NCBI GenBank assembly: GCA_000310025.1
Contig: FN648882.1
Span: 1 to 25,193, forward strand
DNA from: Ectocarpus siliculosus
Lineage: Eukaryota; Sar; Phaeophyceae; Ectocarpales; Ectocarpaceae
Direction: 5' to 3'
Length of the DNA: 25,193 bases
In this document: positions 7,031 to 25,193 of the stretch, piece by piece
Layout of the letters: each line of letters opens with the position of its first letter
Position numbering within the stretch: the first letter of the stretch is position 1
Made by a program: the position numbers and the translations under genes
The notes under the pieces: model-generated
Databases searched by the model: none
Told to the model about the DNA's origin: nothing
Seen by the model: the letters and a program-made list of their open reading frames with translations, nothing else

Positions 7031-7500
7031 GGGTGGCCAGAGGGCAGGTTGTGGGTGGGTTGTGGGCATCCATAAGGTAGGGGCAGGTTGTAGACGGGGG
7101 TTGGGAGGAGGCCCCAACCTTGGCCAAACGGCTTGGTTGTAAAAGGACGGATGCGGAAGGTTGGGAGGCAGCCACAACGTTAGGCCGCACCTCTTGGTTG
7201 TGCAAGCACCGGTCACACAGGTTGCGAGGCAGCCACAACGTTAGGCCGCACCTCTTGGTTGTGCAAACACCGGTCACACAGGTTGCGAGGCAGCCACAAC
7301 GTTAGGCCATACCACTTAGTTGTGCAAGCACCGATCACACAGGTTGAGGCCAGACCTCCTGGTTGTGAAAGCACCGATGATACAGGTTGGGAGGCAGCCA
7401 CAACCTTAGGCCAGACCTCCTGGTTGTGAAAGCACCGATGTTACAGGTTGGGAGGCAGTCACAACCGAAGGCCAGACCTCCTGGCTGTAGATTGTGTCGG
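7031..7500. repeat. 61-bp minisatellite
   Basis: Tandem units begin AGGTTG(C/G)GAGGCAGCC and continue through a TTGTG-containing core to CACAC. Clean 61-bp units start at 7158, 7219, 7280 and 7383, with a shortened unit of about 43 bp at 7340-7382 and diverged edge copies at 7086-7157 and 7444-7500. The first 55 bp (7031-7085) are GT-rich and look like a degenerate edge. The array directly abuts the exon at 7024-6924. Open frames inside it are a by-product of the repeat. Confidence 0.85.
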
Positions 7501-8900
7501 TTCGACGGTCCCGGAAAACTGGCTTCGCAGTGTACTACAATTTCTTTTTTTTCCGGCTGGACAAAACGCAACGTCTCCAATACAGATATGTAGATATAGA
7601 CTAAGAGCCCAGGATACGTTGGCACAATGCGTACTAAATGAACGCATACACCATTCAATTTGGGCTTTTGTGTGAGTGTGTGCGGGGATTCACGAGTGCT
7701 ATGTGTGTACCAGCTACATTGTGCAGGGTACAACAAGATCCCGTTCCAGATCCCGCCAGACAGATGGGAAGAGGGAGTGAGGGGCATCCGAACCATCGAG
7801 CCCCCTATTGCATTTGCATGGCCCTGCACATCACCCCGTGTGACGAACTAGCTAGCCTTGACACAGGCGACCAGAGGTGTGACGAACTAGCTAGCCTTGA
7901 CACAGGCGACCGGAGGCCGCCGCATGCCAAGACGAATAGCGACCAAGCTGGTGTCATTCCTTTCGTAACGAAGGCAAACAGCTATGCTATCTCTAGATGC
8001 TCGGACTCGGGGCACAGCAACCACCGCGAGCTAACCCGGCGCACGACACTGCTGCTGTATAGCGGCAAGGCGAGCTCCACACGGCGCGCGTGGAGAAGAT
8101 CTAGAGCGACATTCCGGCAGCAGTTGCTGATTAGGTAATCGATTCCCCTCCAGTTACATCTGGATGGTACCAGTAGAAGGATGAATTGAGTGAATATTGT
8201 GTGTTGTGTAGTTGTGTATCCCTAAGTATGTATATGTCCCCGTTGGGAAGGGCGCGAAGTCTCCACGTACGTGCTGTAGATGCATGAATATACGCTCAGA
8301 CACCAGCAGTTGGTCCTGCACACCCAACGGCTCTCGGCCTACTGCGTGTATGCGGCTCTTCCTCACCATGCACAGAGCGGGGATTATCCCGGAGGCGTCA
8401 ATAAGCGCCCAGCCTCATAAAAGAGCTTTTTGGAGGGCGGGTAGGCACTTTGATACTTTCAACGTTTTTTTTGTTTTTTGGTGGGCGCTCGTTTTCTTCG
8501 ACAACAGCAACAACGCACAGTAACAAACCCGCATGTCTGCTGCATCTGACCTGTCCACACATATGCATAGCATCAACCGTGTCGACCGTCCACATGCTTC
8601 AACCAACGCCCAGCGCTCATAACACCCAATTGTTTTACATGGGTTGCTCGATTGACACAGGTCGTTCACATGCATGCAATATATCGCGTTCAAAGCAAGA
8701 ATTAACGGTAACCGTAGGTTGCACAAGATACCACACCCCCTTGACCAAGTTTCAACCTATCATGTTCCACGACGAAGACGATTCCGAAAATCAAACGATC
8801 CTTTTTCGAAACGCTCTCGATGAGACAGGTCCAATGCAGCCATTTCCGGCCTCGCCACTCCTTCTGGTGTGGAATAATCAGGCTTTGGAAATTGGTCCAG
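7500..8900. other. No recognised gene
   Basis: Open frames at 7638-8138 (+), 8154-8369 (-) and 8450 onward (+) show no family signal. Apart from the 39-bp duplication annotated separately, I see nothing to call here. Confidence 0.5.
7838..7915. repeat. 39-bp tandem duplication
   Basis: Two adjacent copies (7838-7876 and 7877-7915) both begin GTGTGACGAACTAGCTAGCC and differ at one visible position near the end (CCAGAG against CCGGAG). A length of 39 keeps any reading frame, which explains the repeated peptide in the open frame across it. Confidence 0.9.
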
Positions 8901-8902
8901 GG

Positions 8903-8968
8903 GGCGTGGTATCTTATGCAACCAACTGCTGTGCTGTGAGATCAGTGGATTCGATTCTCCTCTGCGCC
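8903..8968 (+). tRNA. tRNA-like sequence, probably a pseudogene
   Basis: GGCGTGG at the 5' end can pair with CTGCGCC at the 3' end over seven positions, two of them G-T pairs. A B-box-like GGATTCGATTC lies in the T-arm position, and a T6 run follows at 8972-8977, as at a pol III terminator. The T stem pairs poorly, the total is only 66 nt, and no clear anticodon loop can be drawn. A decayed tRNA or SINE head is the likely origin. Confidence 0.3.
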
Positions 8969-13201: not shown

Positions 13202-13745
13202 GCATCGTGCACAACCTCTATGAGAGGGTACGCATTGCAATACGCAACCTGCCCCCTACCGGCTTGTGCGCAACGCGCCAACCTGCAAGAGAGGGTACAC
13301 CTTGCACTATTACCGGCAACCTGCCCCCCAACCGGCTTGTGCAAAGCGCGCCAACCTGCAAAAAAGGGTACACCTTGTCATACCATAGGCAACCTCCCCC
13401 CTAACCGACTTGTGCATGGCGCGCCAACCTCCAAGAAAGGGTACACCTTGCGCTGCCATCGGCAGCCTGCCCACTGTCCAGCTTGCAGGCAGTGCACCAA
13501 CCACAAGAAATGGTACACCTTGCGCCGCCATCGACAGCTTGACCCCAATCCGGCTTGTTAGCAGCGCACCAACCACCAAGAAAGGGTACACCTTGTACTA
13601 CCATCGGCAACCTGCCTCCTATCCGGCTTGTAATAGCGCACAGCCACCAAGAAAGGGTACACCTTGCACTACCATCGGCAACCTGCCCCCTATCCGGCTT
13701 GCAAACAACGCGCAACCTCCAAGAAAGATATACCTTGCACAACCT
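13202..13745. repeat. About 72-bp minisatellite, eight copies
   Basis: The landmark GGGTACACCTTGC recurs at 13226, 13293, 13366, 13439, 13511 (first base changed), 13584, 13655 and 13726 (diverged), giving spacings of 67, 73, 73, 72, 73, 71 and 71. Each unit also carries a C-rich segment, a CCGGCTTG-like segment and a CCAACC(T/A)CCAAGAAA-like segment. Similar open frames on both strands across it are repeat by-products, because the copies differ in length by amounts that are not multiples of three. Confidence 0.9.
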
Positions 13746-14079
13746 GGCCATCGTTGCATTGCAAGGATTACCCAAGGTTGGGAGGTTGCAACTCGTGCCA
13801 AAATAAATCTCGATTCAGGTTGGCAAAAGTGCCCTCCTTACAACCCGGTCTGTTGGCCACCCGTGTCGTGATGCCGTCCTTTGTACGGACATAAAATCAT
13901 GCACGCAACAAGTACGACGAGAAGTTCTCAATCGTTCGTGTGTATTTCGTCCGGCGTATACCACTGACTGTATCTACAGGACAGGACTTGAGCACCGGAC
14001 TTTACCGTCAGCAGCTCTTCCTGTGTGTGATGAACCAGGTGCACGCGAAACACTTGTCTTTCACACTCACTCTCGTATT

Positions 14080-14267
14080 GGCGCCCACGCAACCGACGGG
14101 TGGGCATCCAGAGGGTAAGGTCGCGCGATCGTCGAACACAAGTGCCTCTGTCGTGACACCCGTCAGAGTCCCAGCGTCACCAATCGCCGCGTCCGCAACA
14201 CAGGCACCCGCGACTGCTGCTGGGAGCGCGGCCCAGCTGCGTGAAAGGGCCATGGTGTTACACGAGA
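14080..14267. repeat. Dispersed repeat R1, copy 1 (internally deleted)
   Basis: Bases 14080-14130 match 15844-15890 (shared CGGGTGGGCATCCA and AAGGTCGCG). Bases 14145-14267 match 20511-20637 (shared CTCTGTCG, CCAGCGTC, CGCGACTGC, CGTGAAAGG, CACGAGA). Relative to the other copies, the middle segments seen at 15911-15942 and at 17766-17983 or 20279-20500 are absent. On the minus strand the copy has an open frame (about 14526-14008) without a recognised family. Confidence 0.7.
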
Positions 14268-15061
14268 AGGGGGTGTGTGCAACAATATCGTTTACCGCTT
14301 CTTGATGGTCTCGTGCTAGCCAGTTGCGCGTGTGGAATGAGATTGTGTATTTGATCCTCGGCGACATACTACTGTACATACCCCGCGAGATACGGTACAT
14401 AGATGGAAGATGGACGTTCGCGCTAGCGCCGAAACTAATTCGAGAAGCCGGAGAAATACCCCGAACAGGCAGGACGACCGGACCGCCAACCAACCTCGTT
14501 CTCTCTCCCTGCCAAAATCGGTACATCCATTACTGGTGTACGTACCAAGTAGAGACTGTATAAGCATGTCAGCTCCATAACATCCAGTATTGGACATCCC
14601 GAAACATTTTCGCGCCGTGCTCGATGTTGCACCTGGTTGTGGCTGTGGGTGACTCCGTGACTCCGTGTACTGCGCTACTGTACTGCGGTACTGCGGTAGC
14701 TGAGGGTGCGGGCTAACTATTTTTGTGGGCGCGCAGACACAGGTTTTGTGACGCACAAGGTTCCTGCTCGGTAAAAAGCGGCAGAACTACTGTACGAGAA
14801 CAGCACCGTCCAGCAGTTCACTTTTTTTTTTTTGGCTTCACTTCAAATCAGCGCTCACAGCACTAGTGCCGTTTACTCCAACCCGTGGTCACACAGAAGA
14901 GCCCCTCTCTACCCTCCCCTCCTGCGGTACTTTGCCTTCGATTTTTAATGCGAGAAGAGTTCAGCACTCTCTTCCCTCTGTGTACACACGAACTAGCGCT
15001 ATCCACTCGGCCAAAAGCGAAAGCGAGAGAAAAACTCACTTTGCAAGAAAAGCTCGCTTAC
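14268..15061. other. No recognised gene
   Basis: Short tandem motifs occur around 14646-14700 (TGACTCCG twice, and repeated TACTGCGG-like units), and a T11 run lies near 14823. Open frames on either strand lack recognisable domains. Confidence 0.5.
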
Positions 15062-15812: not shown

Positions 15813-15843
15813 CGTCGCTATGGATAAAGGCTCGAGCTCTTGT

Positions 15844-15952
15844 TGGCACCCAACCAACGGCGGGTGGGCATCCATAGGGCAAGGTCGCGTGCAACCATCG
15901 GACGCGGGGTGTTTGTATATGCCCATGTTGTGGGAGCTCCAGGTCTACAGAA
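15844..15952. repeat. Dispersed repeat R1, copy 2, left part (interrupted)
   Basis: Bases 15844-15890 match copy 1. Bases 15911-15942 (TATATGCCCATGTTGTGGGA) match copy 3 at 20234-20265. Homology stops close to 15952, where the inverted-repeat element begins, and the copy resumes at about 17759 on the far side. Confidence 0.8.
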
Positions 15953-16184
15953 CAGCCGCTCCCGATGATTGAGAAAAATATTTAATGAGAAAAAAAAGTT
16001 GGTCGGCGCACAACAATTGGCCGAAACGTTTCCTCTTTCGCGAACACAGCAAAATGCCAGGCCCGGCGAAAAAACAATTTTAACGCCGCGTGGGGCAAAG
16101 CGACCGCAAAGCCGGCATAGACTACTGCGGTTGGAAACAGGAAACACAGCCTTGAAGAACTTTCCACACACCCTCTGATTCGCT

Positions 16185-16623
16185 TCATACAGCTTGTGGT
16201 TGTGCTGCTTTGAGTGGAACATGTTGGATGGCGAAGTTCTGCCGTGCAGCTTCGCTCTCCAACTCTTGAAACCGCTGGTGCTCGGCCTTGCTCGGCCTTG
16301 AGCAGCTCTAAGCTGTAGTCGTGCTCTGTAGGGTCGGAAACCTTGCTGCCCACATTGCTGTAGGCAGCAACTGTCCGCGACCACGGAGGATACATCTCTC
16401 GATTTGTCACGCCGACGTTTTTTTGGAGGCTCTGTCGGCGGCGTAGAAGGAAGCTCTCCTGCGCCTGGAGATCATGATGAAGTTTCTCCAATTCAATGGA
16501 GTCCGAGGCAGGGCCAGGTACGGCACCGAAGAAGCCTAGAGTATCTGGACTACTGTAAGGACCATGGGGTGTCTGGTCAGGTAGACTGCGAGAAGGGTCA
16601 TCGCGGACAACAACCTCTCTCTG
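16185..16623 (-). pseudogene. Element-internal reading frame broken by a 10-bp tandem duplication
   Basis: On the minus strand a frame opens after an acceptor-like AATAG (CAG at 16623-16621). It runs through Ser/Pro-rich sequence (SSPDTLGFFGAVPGPASDSI) into a Glu/Gln/Leu-rich, coiled-coil-like part (ELEKLHHDLQAQESFLLRRR ... LELLKAE). At 16281-16300 the 10-mer CTCGGCCTTG occurs twice in a row, shifting the frame. The register that would follow a single copy continues as HQRFQELESEAARQNFAIQH and stops at 16187-16185. A third register (HSKQHNHKLYEANQRVCGKF) also looks coding further on, so a second shift is possible. It lies inside the inverted-repeat element and is probably part of the element's own decayed protein. 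Family unknown. Confidence 0.45.
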
Positions 16624-16700
16624 CTATTCCATCCACATCGACCGCGATGATGAAAGAAGGTAGGTGTGAAACTAAAAATTCAAGTTTGGAGTGGTAAACT

Positions 16701-16732
16701 AATACCTCTGCACGGATCCGTGCAGAGGAATT
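16701..16732. repeat. Long palindrome with GGATCC centre
   Basis: Bases 16705-16728 form a perfect 24-bp palindrome (CCTCTGCACGGA and its complement). One mismatch outward it continues to 16701-16732. The centre lies between 16716 and 16717. Confidence 0.9.
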
Positions 16733-16958
16733 ATTGCTACGAGCTTCCTCCTCCGAGGGTTTGGTCGGAACCCACACAACCATAGACACGACGGAAGGGT
16801 TGAGTCGGAATTAAATGGGGTTTATTTCGTGTCCAATGGTATAATGATTGTCCAACGGAGGTTTGATGCAGATTTGGATTTTTCTGAAACACCGCGCTGG
16901 TCTGCTGCCGTCGGCCCGTTCCTCGGAAACCTCAAACACGTGGAAGTAAGTCAATGCA

Positions 16959-16988
16959 GTTTCGGCGTTCCGATCGGAACGCGGAAAC
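16959..16988. repeat. Long palindrome with GATC centre
   Basis: This 30-bp palindrome has one mismatched pair (G-G at 16964 and 16983). Its arm reads GTTTCGGCGTTCCGA. The arm shares GTTTCGGCGTTC with the next palindrome. Confidence 0.9.
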
Positions 16989-17026
16989 GTTTTCGCAGTC
17001 TGTTCTATTGTCAACATATTCACCAC

Positions 17027-17062
17027 AACGTTTCGGCGTTCGGATCCGAACGCTGAAACGTT
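17027..17062. repeat. Long palindrome with GGATCC centre
   Basis: This 36-bp palindrome has one mismatched pair. Its left arm is AACGTTTCGGCGTTCGG. It lies 68 bp from the previous palindrome (centre to centre about 71 bp), and its arm repeats the AACGTTTC motif found in the element's terminal repeats (CCGAAACGTTTCC). Confidence 0.9.
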
Positions 17063-17409
17063 TTGGCCGTCAGGTGTATTTTCAAGTCACTTCAAACAAC
17101 GTTTCCACGCCGGTAATCGGACACATGCCGGGCCAACAATATATCGGCTCACACACCGGCCCACACACCCACACGCTATACCCTCGCGCTCGAGGTCCCC
17201 ACGCACGGGGTCATCCTCGTGTGAAGTTCTTCAAGGTCGCTTTTCCTGTTTCCAATAACAGCAGTCAGTCCATGCCGGCCTTGGCAGCCGCTTTGACCAT
17301 GCGCGTGAAATTTGTTTTTCCGAAGGGCCTGGCATTTTTTAGGGTTTTCCGCTCAACCACCTAGACTAACGGAAGCCCACCCCTGACCTTTCCTAAAACG
17401 CGGTGACCT

Positions 17410-17676
17410 CTACGACAGATCGCCCCTTGGTCTCACAGGAGCAGCTGCAGTGTGCACTTTTCTTACTGCTGCTTGCTGCTGCTGCTGCTGGCTGAAAAAG
17501 TGTTTGGACTCCACTACGTCATCACCGCCGTTGCTTATCCAATCCATCCCCCGATGAAACTCCCCCGCAATTTCTTGCTTACTTTGCCACTGCTGCACTG
17601 ACTGCTGTACGATCCAATCCCGCGCCTCAAACACCAGATTTCCTTCGTTCAATCTTACACGTTTGCGTGATGAGAG
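17410..17676 (-). pseudogene. Element-internal polyglutamine-containing reading frame
   Basis: On the minus strand a frame continues out of the right terminal repeat and ends at TAG 17412-17410. After RLNEGNLVFEARDWIVQQSV it carries EIAGEFHRGMDWISNGGDD and a run of six Gln (CAG repeats; plus-strand CTG repeat around 17466-17490). An acceptor-like GTGTAAG lies just before it. No family is recognised. Since it sits between the two parts of the right inverted arm and has no counterpart in the left arm, it was either gained on the right or lost on the left. Confidence 0.35.
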
Positions 17677-17758
17677 GAAACGTTTCGGCAAATTGTTGTG
17701 CGCCGACCAATTTTTTTTTCTCAATCAAATATTTTTTCTCAGTCATCGAGAGCGGCTG

Positions 17759-17983
17759 GTAAAGGGTGTTGTTAACCGCATGTATTAGATCGCAGGGGCG
17801 ACATCGGAGAGGAGGAGTAGGAGAATGGAGGAGAAAGGAGGAGCGCCAGGCCAAAACCAGTCGAAAGGGGGCCCGCAACTCGTATCCTAATGTCTCTCCT
17901 AGCATGTCCATCAAGGTCATTCCCATCTGCAATATACGATCCCGCCAGTATCGGTACAATCCGACCAATCTACCTCCACGCAC
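17759..17983. repeat. Dispersed repeat R1, copy 2, right part
   Basis: From 17766 (GTGTTGTTAACCGCATGTAT) to about 17983 this matches 20279-20500 at roughly 85% by eye, including CTCTCCTAGCATGTCC and CAGTATCGGTACAATCCGAC. On the minus strand this copy keeps an open frame (RLVGLYRYWRDRILQMG, LGETLGYELRAPF) that is shifted in copy 3 by an extra four bases near 20448. Confidence 0.85.
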
Positions 17984-18775
17984 AATTACCCTCCCTTGGT
18001 TGTTCACGCCAGTGCCTAGCCATCCGTGGGTCGAAAGAATATCCGGAAGAACACCGAAAAAACACAAATCAAAAACAAAGAGAAACCCGCCGTCGGATCA
18101 AAACACTTCCGAAACTCAACGCGTTCACGCCAGTCATATCACGACATATTCCAACGGCCGTACTGCAACATCAAGGCAAAACACTTCTATCATATCACCG
18201 CCCCAGGGTTCGCTCTACCCGCCACGCGGGAGGGACTTCATAAGATCCAACTTTGAGCAGCACAAAAACAAGTCGATCATGTCCCCACTACACCTTGGGG
18301 AGGCCGTACGATAAACTGGGCAAACAACCACTAACAAGCACCTGATTCTACTCTGCTGTCTGCATTCCAAACGAAAACACTGATAATCTCCGCATTATGC
18401 CCTCCCTTGCGCAACAAGCTGCCTATTAGTTGAGGAAAACCTCACGTGCCCTCTCTGGTGTGCCAACGCGCGCTCTCTACCCACCCTGTAGAGGCGTCTT
18501 TATATCGTTAGGTGGCGTTATCCACCAGACTACCCAGTGGGCTGACTGCCCTAGAAGTACATACACACAACAATCATCCAGAATTCGCTGAACAAAACAG
18601 ACACATGATAAGACCATGCCTCCGGCCGTGGAAATACGACCGAAACCACTTTCTCGACCTCTGGTCACTCGCACTACGTGGCACGTCTTTCAGCAGTCAA
18701 ACACCTATTATGATCATGTTCCAACTTAAACATAAATGCACGCGATACCTCCCACGCGACTTGCATTGAGGACAC
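17984..18775. other. No recognised gene
   Basis: After R1 copy 2 ends, the sequence departs from copy 3 and no family, RNA or repeat was recognised on either strand. Confidence 0.5.
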
Positions 18776-19815: not shown

Positions 19816-20233
19816 CTGCAGGCGTGACGTACAAAACCCGCATCAGGCGCTTTCCACACCCGGCACACTACTGCTCTCTCCTCGAGCAGCGCGGCCCTCC
19901 CTCATGATCACCGCAGCATGAAGCTCCCGGTGGCTGCTCGGCGGAACCAACACCCTAATTCCGCCGCACCTGCTGTGCCTCTTTCAGCACAACCCGACTC
20001 CTCCTGGCCTCGCCCATCCGACTCGGCCCGCAGCAGCGATCGCAGCGTGCCCATCATCCCCGGTATCCCTGGCTCTCGTCTCTACTCGAGCCCCTGGTCT
20101 AAACCTGCGCGTCGTGTCACTCAGTAAGGTGCTTCCCACCGGACACACACACACACCCCTGCTGCTGCGTCCCGACACCCAGCTGAACTCGGAAGATCAC
20201 GGGCGGGCGCCTCCGGAGGACACATTCTAGAAT

Positions 20234-20637
20234 GTTTGTGTATGCCCATGTTGTGTGAGTTCCAGAGTCCAAAGAAGAGTGTTGTTAACCGCATGTATTA
20301 GATCGTAGGGGCGATATCAGAGAGGAGGAGTAGGAGAAAGAGGGAGAAGGGAGGAATGCAAGGCCACAAACAGTAGGAAGGGGACCCGCAACTCGTATCC
20401 CAAAGTCTCTCCTAGCATGTCCCGCAAGGTCATTCCCATCTGCGATAGATATACGAAACCGCCAGTATCGGTACAATCCGACCAATCTACCTCCACACAC
20501 GAATACGGGGGACTCTGTCGCGACATCGGTTTTGAGAGTTCCAGCGTCGACAATGATCTCATCCATACCCAGGCACTCGCGACTGCAGCTGCGAGCCTGA
20601 CCCAGCTTCGTGAAAGGTCCATGGCGTCTACACGAGA
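20234..20637. repeat. Dispersed repeat R1, copy 3 (uninterrupted at the insertion point)
   Basis: This copy contains, in order, the segment matching 15911-15942 (from 20234), the uninterrupted junction TTCCAGAGTCCAAAGAAGAG, the 222-bp segment matching 17766-17983 (20279-20500), and the segment matching copy 1 (20511-20637). It gives the empty site for the inverted-repeat element. The left-most R1 segment of copies 1 and 2 was not found here. Confidence 0.85.
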
Positions 20638-20730
20638 TATGAGATGTGTGGAAACTAGTGCTGCCGATGTGGGCGTGCAGCTAGTTGTGTGTATGTGGTG
20701 TGTGGGTGTGTGAGCCCCTACAACTTTTAG

Positions 20731-24243: not shown

Positions 24244-25193
24244 GCACGGGACGCGCCAATAGTGGAAGCACTCGTCCGTGCTGTTGGCGAGTGGAAGTTA
24301 ACCGATCTCAACGCAACGAAACACGAAGTCATACATGTATCAGCACGGGATGCGCCAATGAGTGGAAGCACCCGCGCTGTTGGCGAGTAGAGTTAACCGA
24401 ATTCAACGCAGCGGTAGAAAAATACCACAAATCATGCATCAGTACGGGACGCGCCAATGAGTGGAAGCACCCGTGCTGCATATGTGATGTCAGCCTCAGC
24501 ACGGGACGCGCCAATGAGTGGAAGCACTCGTGCGGTTGGTGAGTAGAGTTAACCGATCTCAAAAAGAAAGAACAAAACGCCGTACATGTATCAGCACGGG
24601 ACGCGCCAATGAGTGGAAGCACCCGCGCTGTTGGCGAGTAGAGTTAACCGAATTCAACGCAGCGGTAGAAAAATACCACAAATCATGCATCAGTACGGGA
24701 CGCGCCAATGAGTGGAAGCACCCGTGCTGCATATGTGATGTCAGCCTCAGCACGGGACGCGCCAATGAGTGGAAGCACTCGTGCTGTTGGCGAGTAGAGT
24801 TAACCGATCTCAAAAAGAAAGAACAAAACGCCGTACATGTATCAGCACGGGACGCGCCAATGAGTGGAAGCACTCGCGCTGTTGGCGAGTAGAGTTAACC
24901 GAATTCAACGCAGCGGTAGGAAATACCACAAATCATGCATCAGTACGGGACGCGCCAATGAGTGGAAGCACCCGTGCTGCATATGTGTTGTCAGCCTCAG
25001 CACGGGACGCGCCAACGAGTGGAAGCACTCGTGCTGTTGGCGAGTAGAGTTAACCGATCTCAAAAAGAAAGAACAAAACGCCGTACACGTATCAGCACGG
25101 GACGCACCAATGAGTGGAAGCACCCGCGCTGTTGGCGAGTAGAGTTAACCGAATTCAACGCAACGGTAGGAAATACCACAAATCATGCATCAG
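24244..25193. repeat. 251-bp higher-order satellite of three related subunits, continuing past the window
   Basis: Every subunit begins G(C/T)ACGGGACGCGCCAATGAG followed by TGGAAGCAC. Start points are 24244, 24343, 24442, 24499, 24594, 24693, 24750, 24845, 24943, 25000 and 25095. From 24343 the spacings follow a strict 99-57-95 pattern (251, 251 and 250 bp per round). The 99-bp type ends in GAATTCAACGCAGCGGTAG and CAAATCATGCATC. The 57-bp type ends in CATATGTGATGTCAGCCTC. The 95-bp type ends in GATCTCAAAAAGAAAGAAC. CGCCAA and TTGGCG form a short inverted pair inside the 99- and 95-bp types. A period of 251 is not a multiple of three, so the long open frames here are not genes. Confidence 0.95.

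Follow-up and report, generated by a model that had tools for sequence, protein, structure and literature searches.

A probable non-autonomous DNA transposon with long, split terminal inverted repeats, inserted in a dispersed repeat of Ectocarpus siliculosus that has an uninterrupted copy in the same window

In the window analysed here, that is, the whole 25,193-nt stretch of Ectocarpus siliculosus DNA (contig FN648882.1), one copy of a dispersed repeat (R1) is interrupted by a unit of about 1.8 kb that starts with CAGCCGCTC and finishes with GAGCGGCTG. The unit is bordered by outer terminal inverted repeats (TIRs) of approximately 85 bp each (91.9% identical by self-BLAST of the window), followed by a second pair of inner inverted arms, and harbors a near-perfect palindrome and a central module of short tandem copies (Table 1).

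Table 1. Features of the inserted unit, of its R1 flanks and of the uninterrupted R1 copy (window positions)
Feature	Position	Strand	Remarks
Whole inserted unit, CAG...CTG ends	15953..17758	.	1,806 bp; TIR ends at most 3 bp from both R1 homology breaks
Left TIR, outer part	15953..16036	+	91.9% vs 17758-17673, 86 columns (self-BLAST)
Right TIR, outer part	17673..17758	-	Partner of 15953-16036
Left inner inverted arm	16051..16169	+	Collinear with outer arm; 79.8% vs 17338-17219 (self-BLAST)
Right inner inverted arm	17219..17338	-	Partner of 16051-16169; 334 bp from outer right arm
Right-arm stretch, no left-arm counterpart found	17339..17660	.	About 322 bp; from reading of the junctions
Near-perfect palindrome	16700..16733	.	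34 bp; 94% complementary
Central module	16959..17105	.	71-bp sequence repeated 2.1 times in tandem; includes palindromes and GAAACGTTTYGGC (TIR motif) variants
Left flank, R1 sequence	15910..15952	+	Matches 20233-20276
Right flank, R1 resumes	17759..17989	+	Matches 20275-20506 from 17762 on
Uninterrupted R1 copy (empty site)	20233..20506	+	Single alignment with joined flanks, 85.3%, 279 columns

The R1 sequences on both sides of the unit are found side by side elsewhere in the window. By self-BLAST, 15910-15955 matches 20233-20279 (85.1% identity, E 6e-7) and 17762-17989 matches 20275-20506 (87.1%, E 5e-77), such that two flanks lying about 1.8 kb apart at the unit abut in the second copy, with an overlap of a few bases, and give one BLAST alignment with it when joined. 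The initial annotation had proposed that this copy runs straight through and preserves the empty site, and that 15953-17758 moved as a unit with inverted ends; both proposals hold. The TIR alignment opens exactly at the first base of CAG (15953) and at the last base of CTG (17758), the left R1 match overruns 3 bases into the unit (two of the three matching), the right R1 match begins 3 bases outside it, and the local score of one end of the unit against the other is 133, for a maximum of 26 among 300 dinucleotide shuffles. Boundaries obtained by two approaches, the TIR ends and the R1 breaks, thus agree on both sides, as predicted for an insertion, and the sequence indicates that 15953-17758 most likely entered R1 as one unit. 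A single copy of this unit is seen within the window, together with just two R1 copies that include the insertion point. A third R1 piece (14072-14282) associates a segment similar to 15837-15889 (14072-14125) with another similar to 20500-20653 (14133-14282, self-BLAST), and is devoid of the middle stretch of R1 that carries this point.

The two arms of the unit are not organized in the same way, as the spacing between outer and inner arms is 14 bp on the left against 334 bp on the right. Judging from the sequence, this asymmetry (17339-17660) would correspond either to a gain in the right arm or to a loss in the left one; neither the ends nor the duplication of a second insertion were recognised around this stretch when inspected by eye. 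A 10-bp direct duplication at 16280-16299 reveals a small rearrangement in the interior of the unit. The 13-bp TIR motif GAAACGTTTYGGC, searched on both strands with up to two mismatches, is matched 12 times in the window, including 10 times inside the unit, for a chance expectation of 1.15 in the whole window, and a count of 12 was reached in none of 100 shuffles. As the core of the motif is palindromic, every place is counted twice, and the matches in the unit correspond to five places: the central module contains three of them and each outer arm a single one. The excess is also weaker than the bare count because the motif was defined on the unit itself, and because arms and tandem copies are not independent of each other. 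These places could be candidate protein-binding sites.

Does the unit encode its own transposase? Twenty-three ORFs of at least 45 aa overlap the unit, 22 of which were scanned against Pfam (the omitted one, 15828-15968, lies mostly in the flank), and none of the 22 has a match above the cut-off. No transposase was therefore detected by this profile search, in line with the initial annotation, which had recognised none. Sub-cut-off matches were obtained for three of the 22 ORFs (DUF7785, E 0.13; DUF5955, E 0.28; FIBL-2, E 0.092, the last belonging to an ORF mostly in the flank), none of them a transposase, and two ORFs of the unit were compared with solved structures and had no match. The lengths of the ORFs are borderline against shuffles: an ORF as long as the longest one within the unit, 213 aa, arises in 23 of 500 shuffles, while the value for the second longest, 173 aa, is attained in 16 of 500. 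Codon-position bias was evaluated in seven partly overlapping stretches of the unit, with p 0.0035 for 16303-16623 (minus strand, chosen by eye) and 0.06-0.85 for the six others; for the ORF containing 16303-16623, p is only 0.25. From these values, a coding relic inside the unit is possible.

For duplication lengths of 1-13 bp, the bases on the two sides of the unit were set against each other and against the empty site, and no convincing target-site duplication was found at any of these lengths. The best flank counts are 2 of 3, 2 of 4, 4 of 8 and 4 of 10 matching bases, while other lengths give 2 of 5, 2 of 6, 1 of 7, 2 of 9 and 1 of 11. The highest-scoring solution relative to the empty site (153) takes out 5 bp, with two supposed duplication copies that match at 2 of 5 bases. 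The degenerate duplication of 8-10 bp that had been allowed for in the flanks by the initial annotation thus finds support neither in the flank counts nor in the comparison with the empty site. One can also sketch by hand an 8-bp duplication shortened by 3 bp through later slippage in the AAG-rich target; the 8-bp solution scores 144, against 153 for the 5-bp one, and this post hoc reading was rejected. The AAG-rich composition of the empty site leaves room for minor slippage, which may have obscured the target site. Heavy decay of a duplication is not expected with outer arms that are only about 8% apart, and an 8-bp duplication with four mismatches would represent more decay than this difference predicts.

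To which group of elements could the unit belong? Terminal inverted repeats at both ends and an uninserted counterpart of the target (20233-20506), which characterize class II TIR DNA transposons, are both present. Kolobok elements duplicate TTAA and Mariner/Tc1 elements TA; the unit is flanked by AGAA and GTAA, with AA and GT at the junctions, and corresponds to neither. A DIRS-type element, raised because no duplication is seen, has both of its ends complemented by a long internal segment, and no such segment was noticed among the inverted pairs. The CAG...CTG ends resemble those of hAT elements, and the best-fitting empty-site difference of 5 bp would also suit a hAT element, but the TIRs of hAT elements are usually much shorter than those observed here. 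The hAT duplication is usually 8 bp, with groups at 5, 6 and 7 bp (PMC12730594), and the flanks of the unit match at 4 of 8, 1 of 7, 2 of 6 and 2 of 5 bases at these lengths; none of the 22 scanned ORFs carries a hAT domain. KDZ (Zisupton) elements combine an 8-bp duplication with TIRs (PMC12730594); the unit has TIRs, a 4 of 8 match and no transposase seen. Canonical PIF/Harbinger elements, defined by TNA or ANT duplications, do not correspond to the GAA and GTA junctions of the unit, and as some of their relatives duplicate 2 bp or nothing at all (PMC12730594), a Harbinger relative without the canonical duplication is possible.

Long TIRs, additional inner inverted sequence, an unrelated interior and no transposase are shared by the unit and by non-autonomous MULEs, including multiple- and tandem-TIR ones (PMC3310237). 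Multiple-TIR MULEs were accepted in that study only when a 9-11 bp duplication carried no more than two mismatches; the unit shows 2 of 9, 4 of 10 and 1 of 11 matching bases, and falls outside the MULEs by this duplication criterion. The MULE transposase domain is absent from the Pfam matches in 22 of the 23 ORFs, which remains compatible with a non-autonomous member, and the unit may work like a MULE. It also has long inverted arms with repeats, like foldback-type elements, but differs from them by mostly non-repeated sequence between its arms. Finally, long split inverted arms, a palindromic central module in which the TIR motif recurs and an unusual target duplication (about 5 bp or none) might be taken together as the hallmark of a new superfamily, a reading to which we attach very little weight. 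According to PMC12477816, the majority of Ectocarpus TE families have yet to be classified.

The TIRs, the empty site, the lack of Pfam matches in 22 of the 23 ORFs and the copies of the TIR motif in the center of the unit all count in favor of a transposon, and it is highly probable that the unit is an old, non-autonomous, long-TIR DNA transposon, mobilized in trans by the transposase of another element, and since decayed. This transposase, encoded elsewhere, would have moved the unit, probably by binding its inverted ends, through a cut-and-paste reaction presumably catalyzed by a DDE-type enzyme, and the unit would have landed in one R1 copy after the two R1 copies diverged. The outer arms are about 8% apart, against 13-15% for the R1 copies, which is consistent with an insertion later than the separation of the R1 copies, provided that both arms were initially alike; the inner arms, about 20% apart, do not fit this dating unless they already differed when the unit inserted. 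Decay following insertion would then have led to the divergence of the arms, to the gain or loss of about 322 bp in one of them, and to the erosion of any target duplication.

The opposite direction of change, in which the 1.8 kb would be ancestral in this R1 lineage and would have been lost from the 20233-20506 copy by precise excision or deletion, has to be considered, given that just two R1 copies span the point in the window, that the 14072-14282 piece is without the middle of R1, and that excision could have left the apparent net difference of 5 bp as its footprint. Yet the break sits at the ends of the inverted repeats, so that a transposon would still be implied, and the divergence between the outer arms is lower than that between the two R1 copies; we regard this direction as improbable. 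It is also quite improbable that some other mechanism (foldback-type rearrangement, filler DNA at a repaired break, or a tyrosine-recombinase element) set an inverted-repeat segment in place without target duplication: the absence of a clear duplication, the split inverted arms and the palindromes inside the unit would suit such an origin, but the CAG...CTG ends are sharp and symmetrical, and no recombinase was found among Pfam matches in 22 of the 23 ORFs.

Read as a decayed non-autonomous transposon, the unit is an ordinary kind of element, soundly observed, and taken alone it is an ordinary piece of repeat-rich, eukaryote-like sequence. The insertion and its empty site together in one window can be used as a seed to define the repeat family in the host genome, and a larger significance would arise only if genome copies had a consistent target duplication of an unknown kind. 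Relatives were searched in other collections: exact inverted-repeat DNA patterns of the unit and an exact R1 pattern had no match in viral contigs, and no similar DNA was found in plasmids or phages. A 16-base pattern was found in at least 80 stretches of prokaryotic genome contigs, for about 120 expected by chance (our own estimate), and the 80 listed stretches gave one weak match to the whole window (25 bases, E 0.007). No Rfam family at the gathering threshold and no tRNA were detected in the window.

Several other features were observed in the window. Two ORFs on the plus strand (165-647 and 737-1600) display a strong codon-position bias, with values reached in none of 2000 permutations, as compared with p 0.25-0.51 for four other ORFs of the window. 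A weak Pfam match to an integrase core domain (E 0.011), below the threshold, was obtained for 165-647, there is no Pfam match for 737-1600, and both could perhaps be read from their sequence as a retrotransposon fragment; a peptide pattern from 165-647 matched 9 stretches in viral contigs, none of which was confirmed. At 8714-8926, a 213-bp sequence with 42-bp inverted ends (86% complementary) resembles a miniature inverted-repeat element, with no clear flanking duplication by eye. A tandem array runs from 24242 to the window end at 25193 (period of 251 bp, 3.8 copies, with subrepeats of about 95-99 bp), an exact 25-base pattern of which is absent from viral contigs, and other arrays are composed of 73-bp units at 13244-13744 (6.9 copies) and of 61-bp units at 7158-7488.
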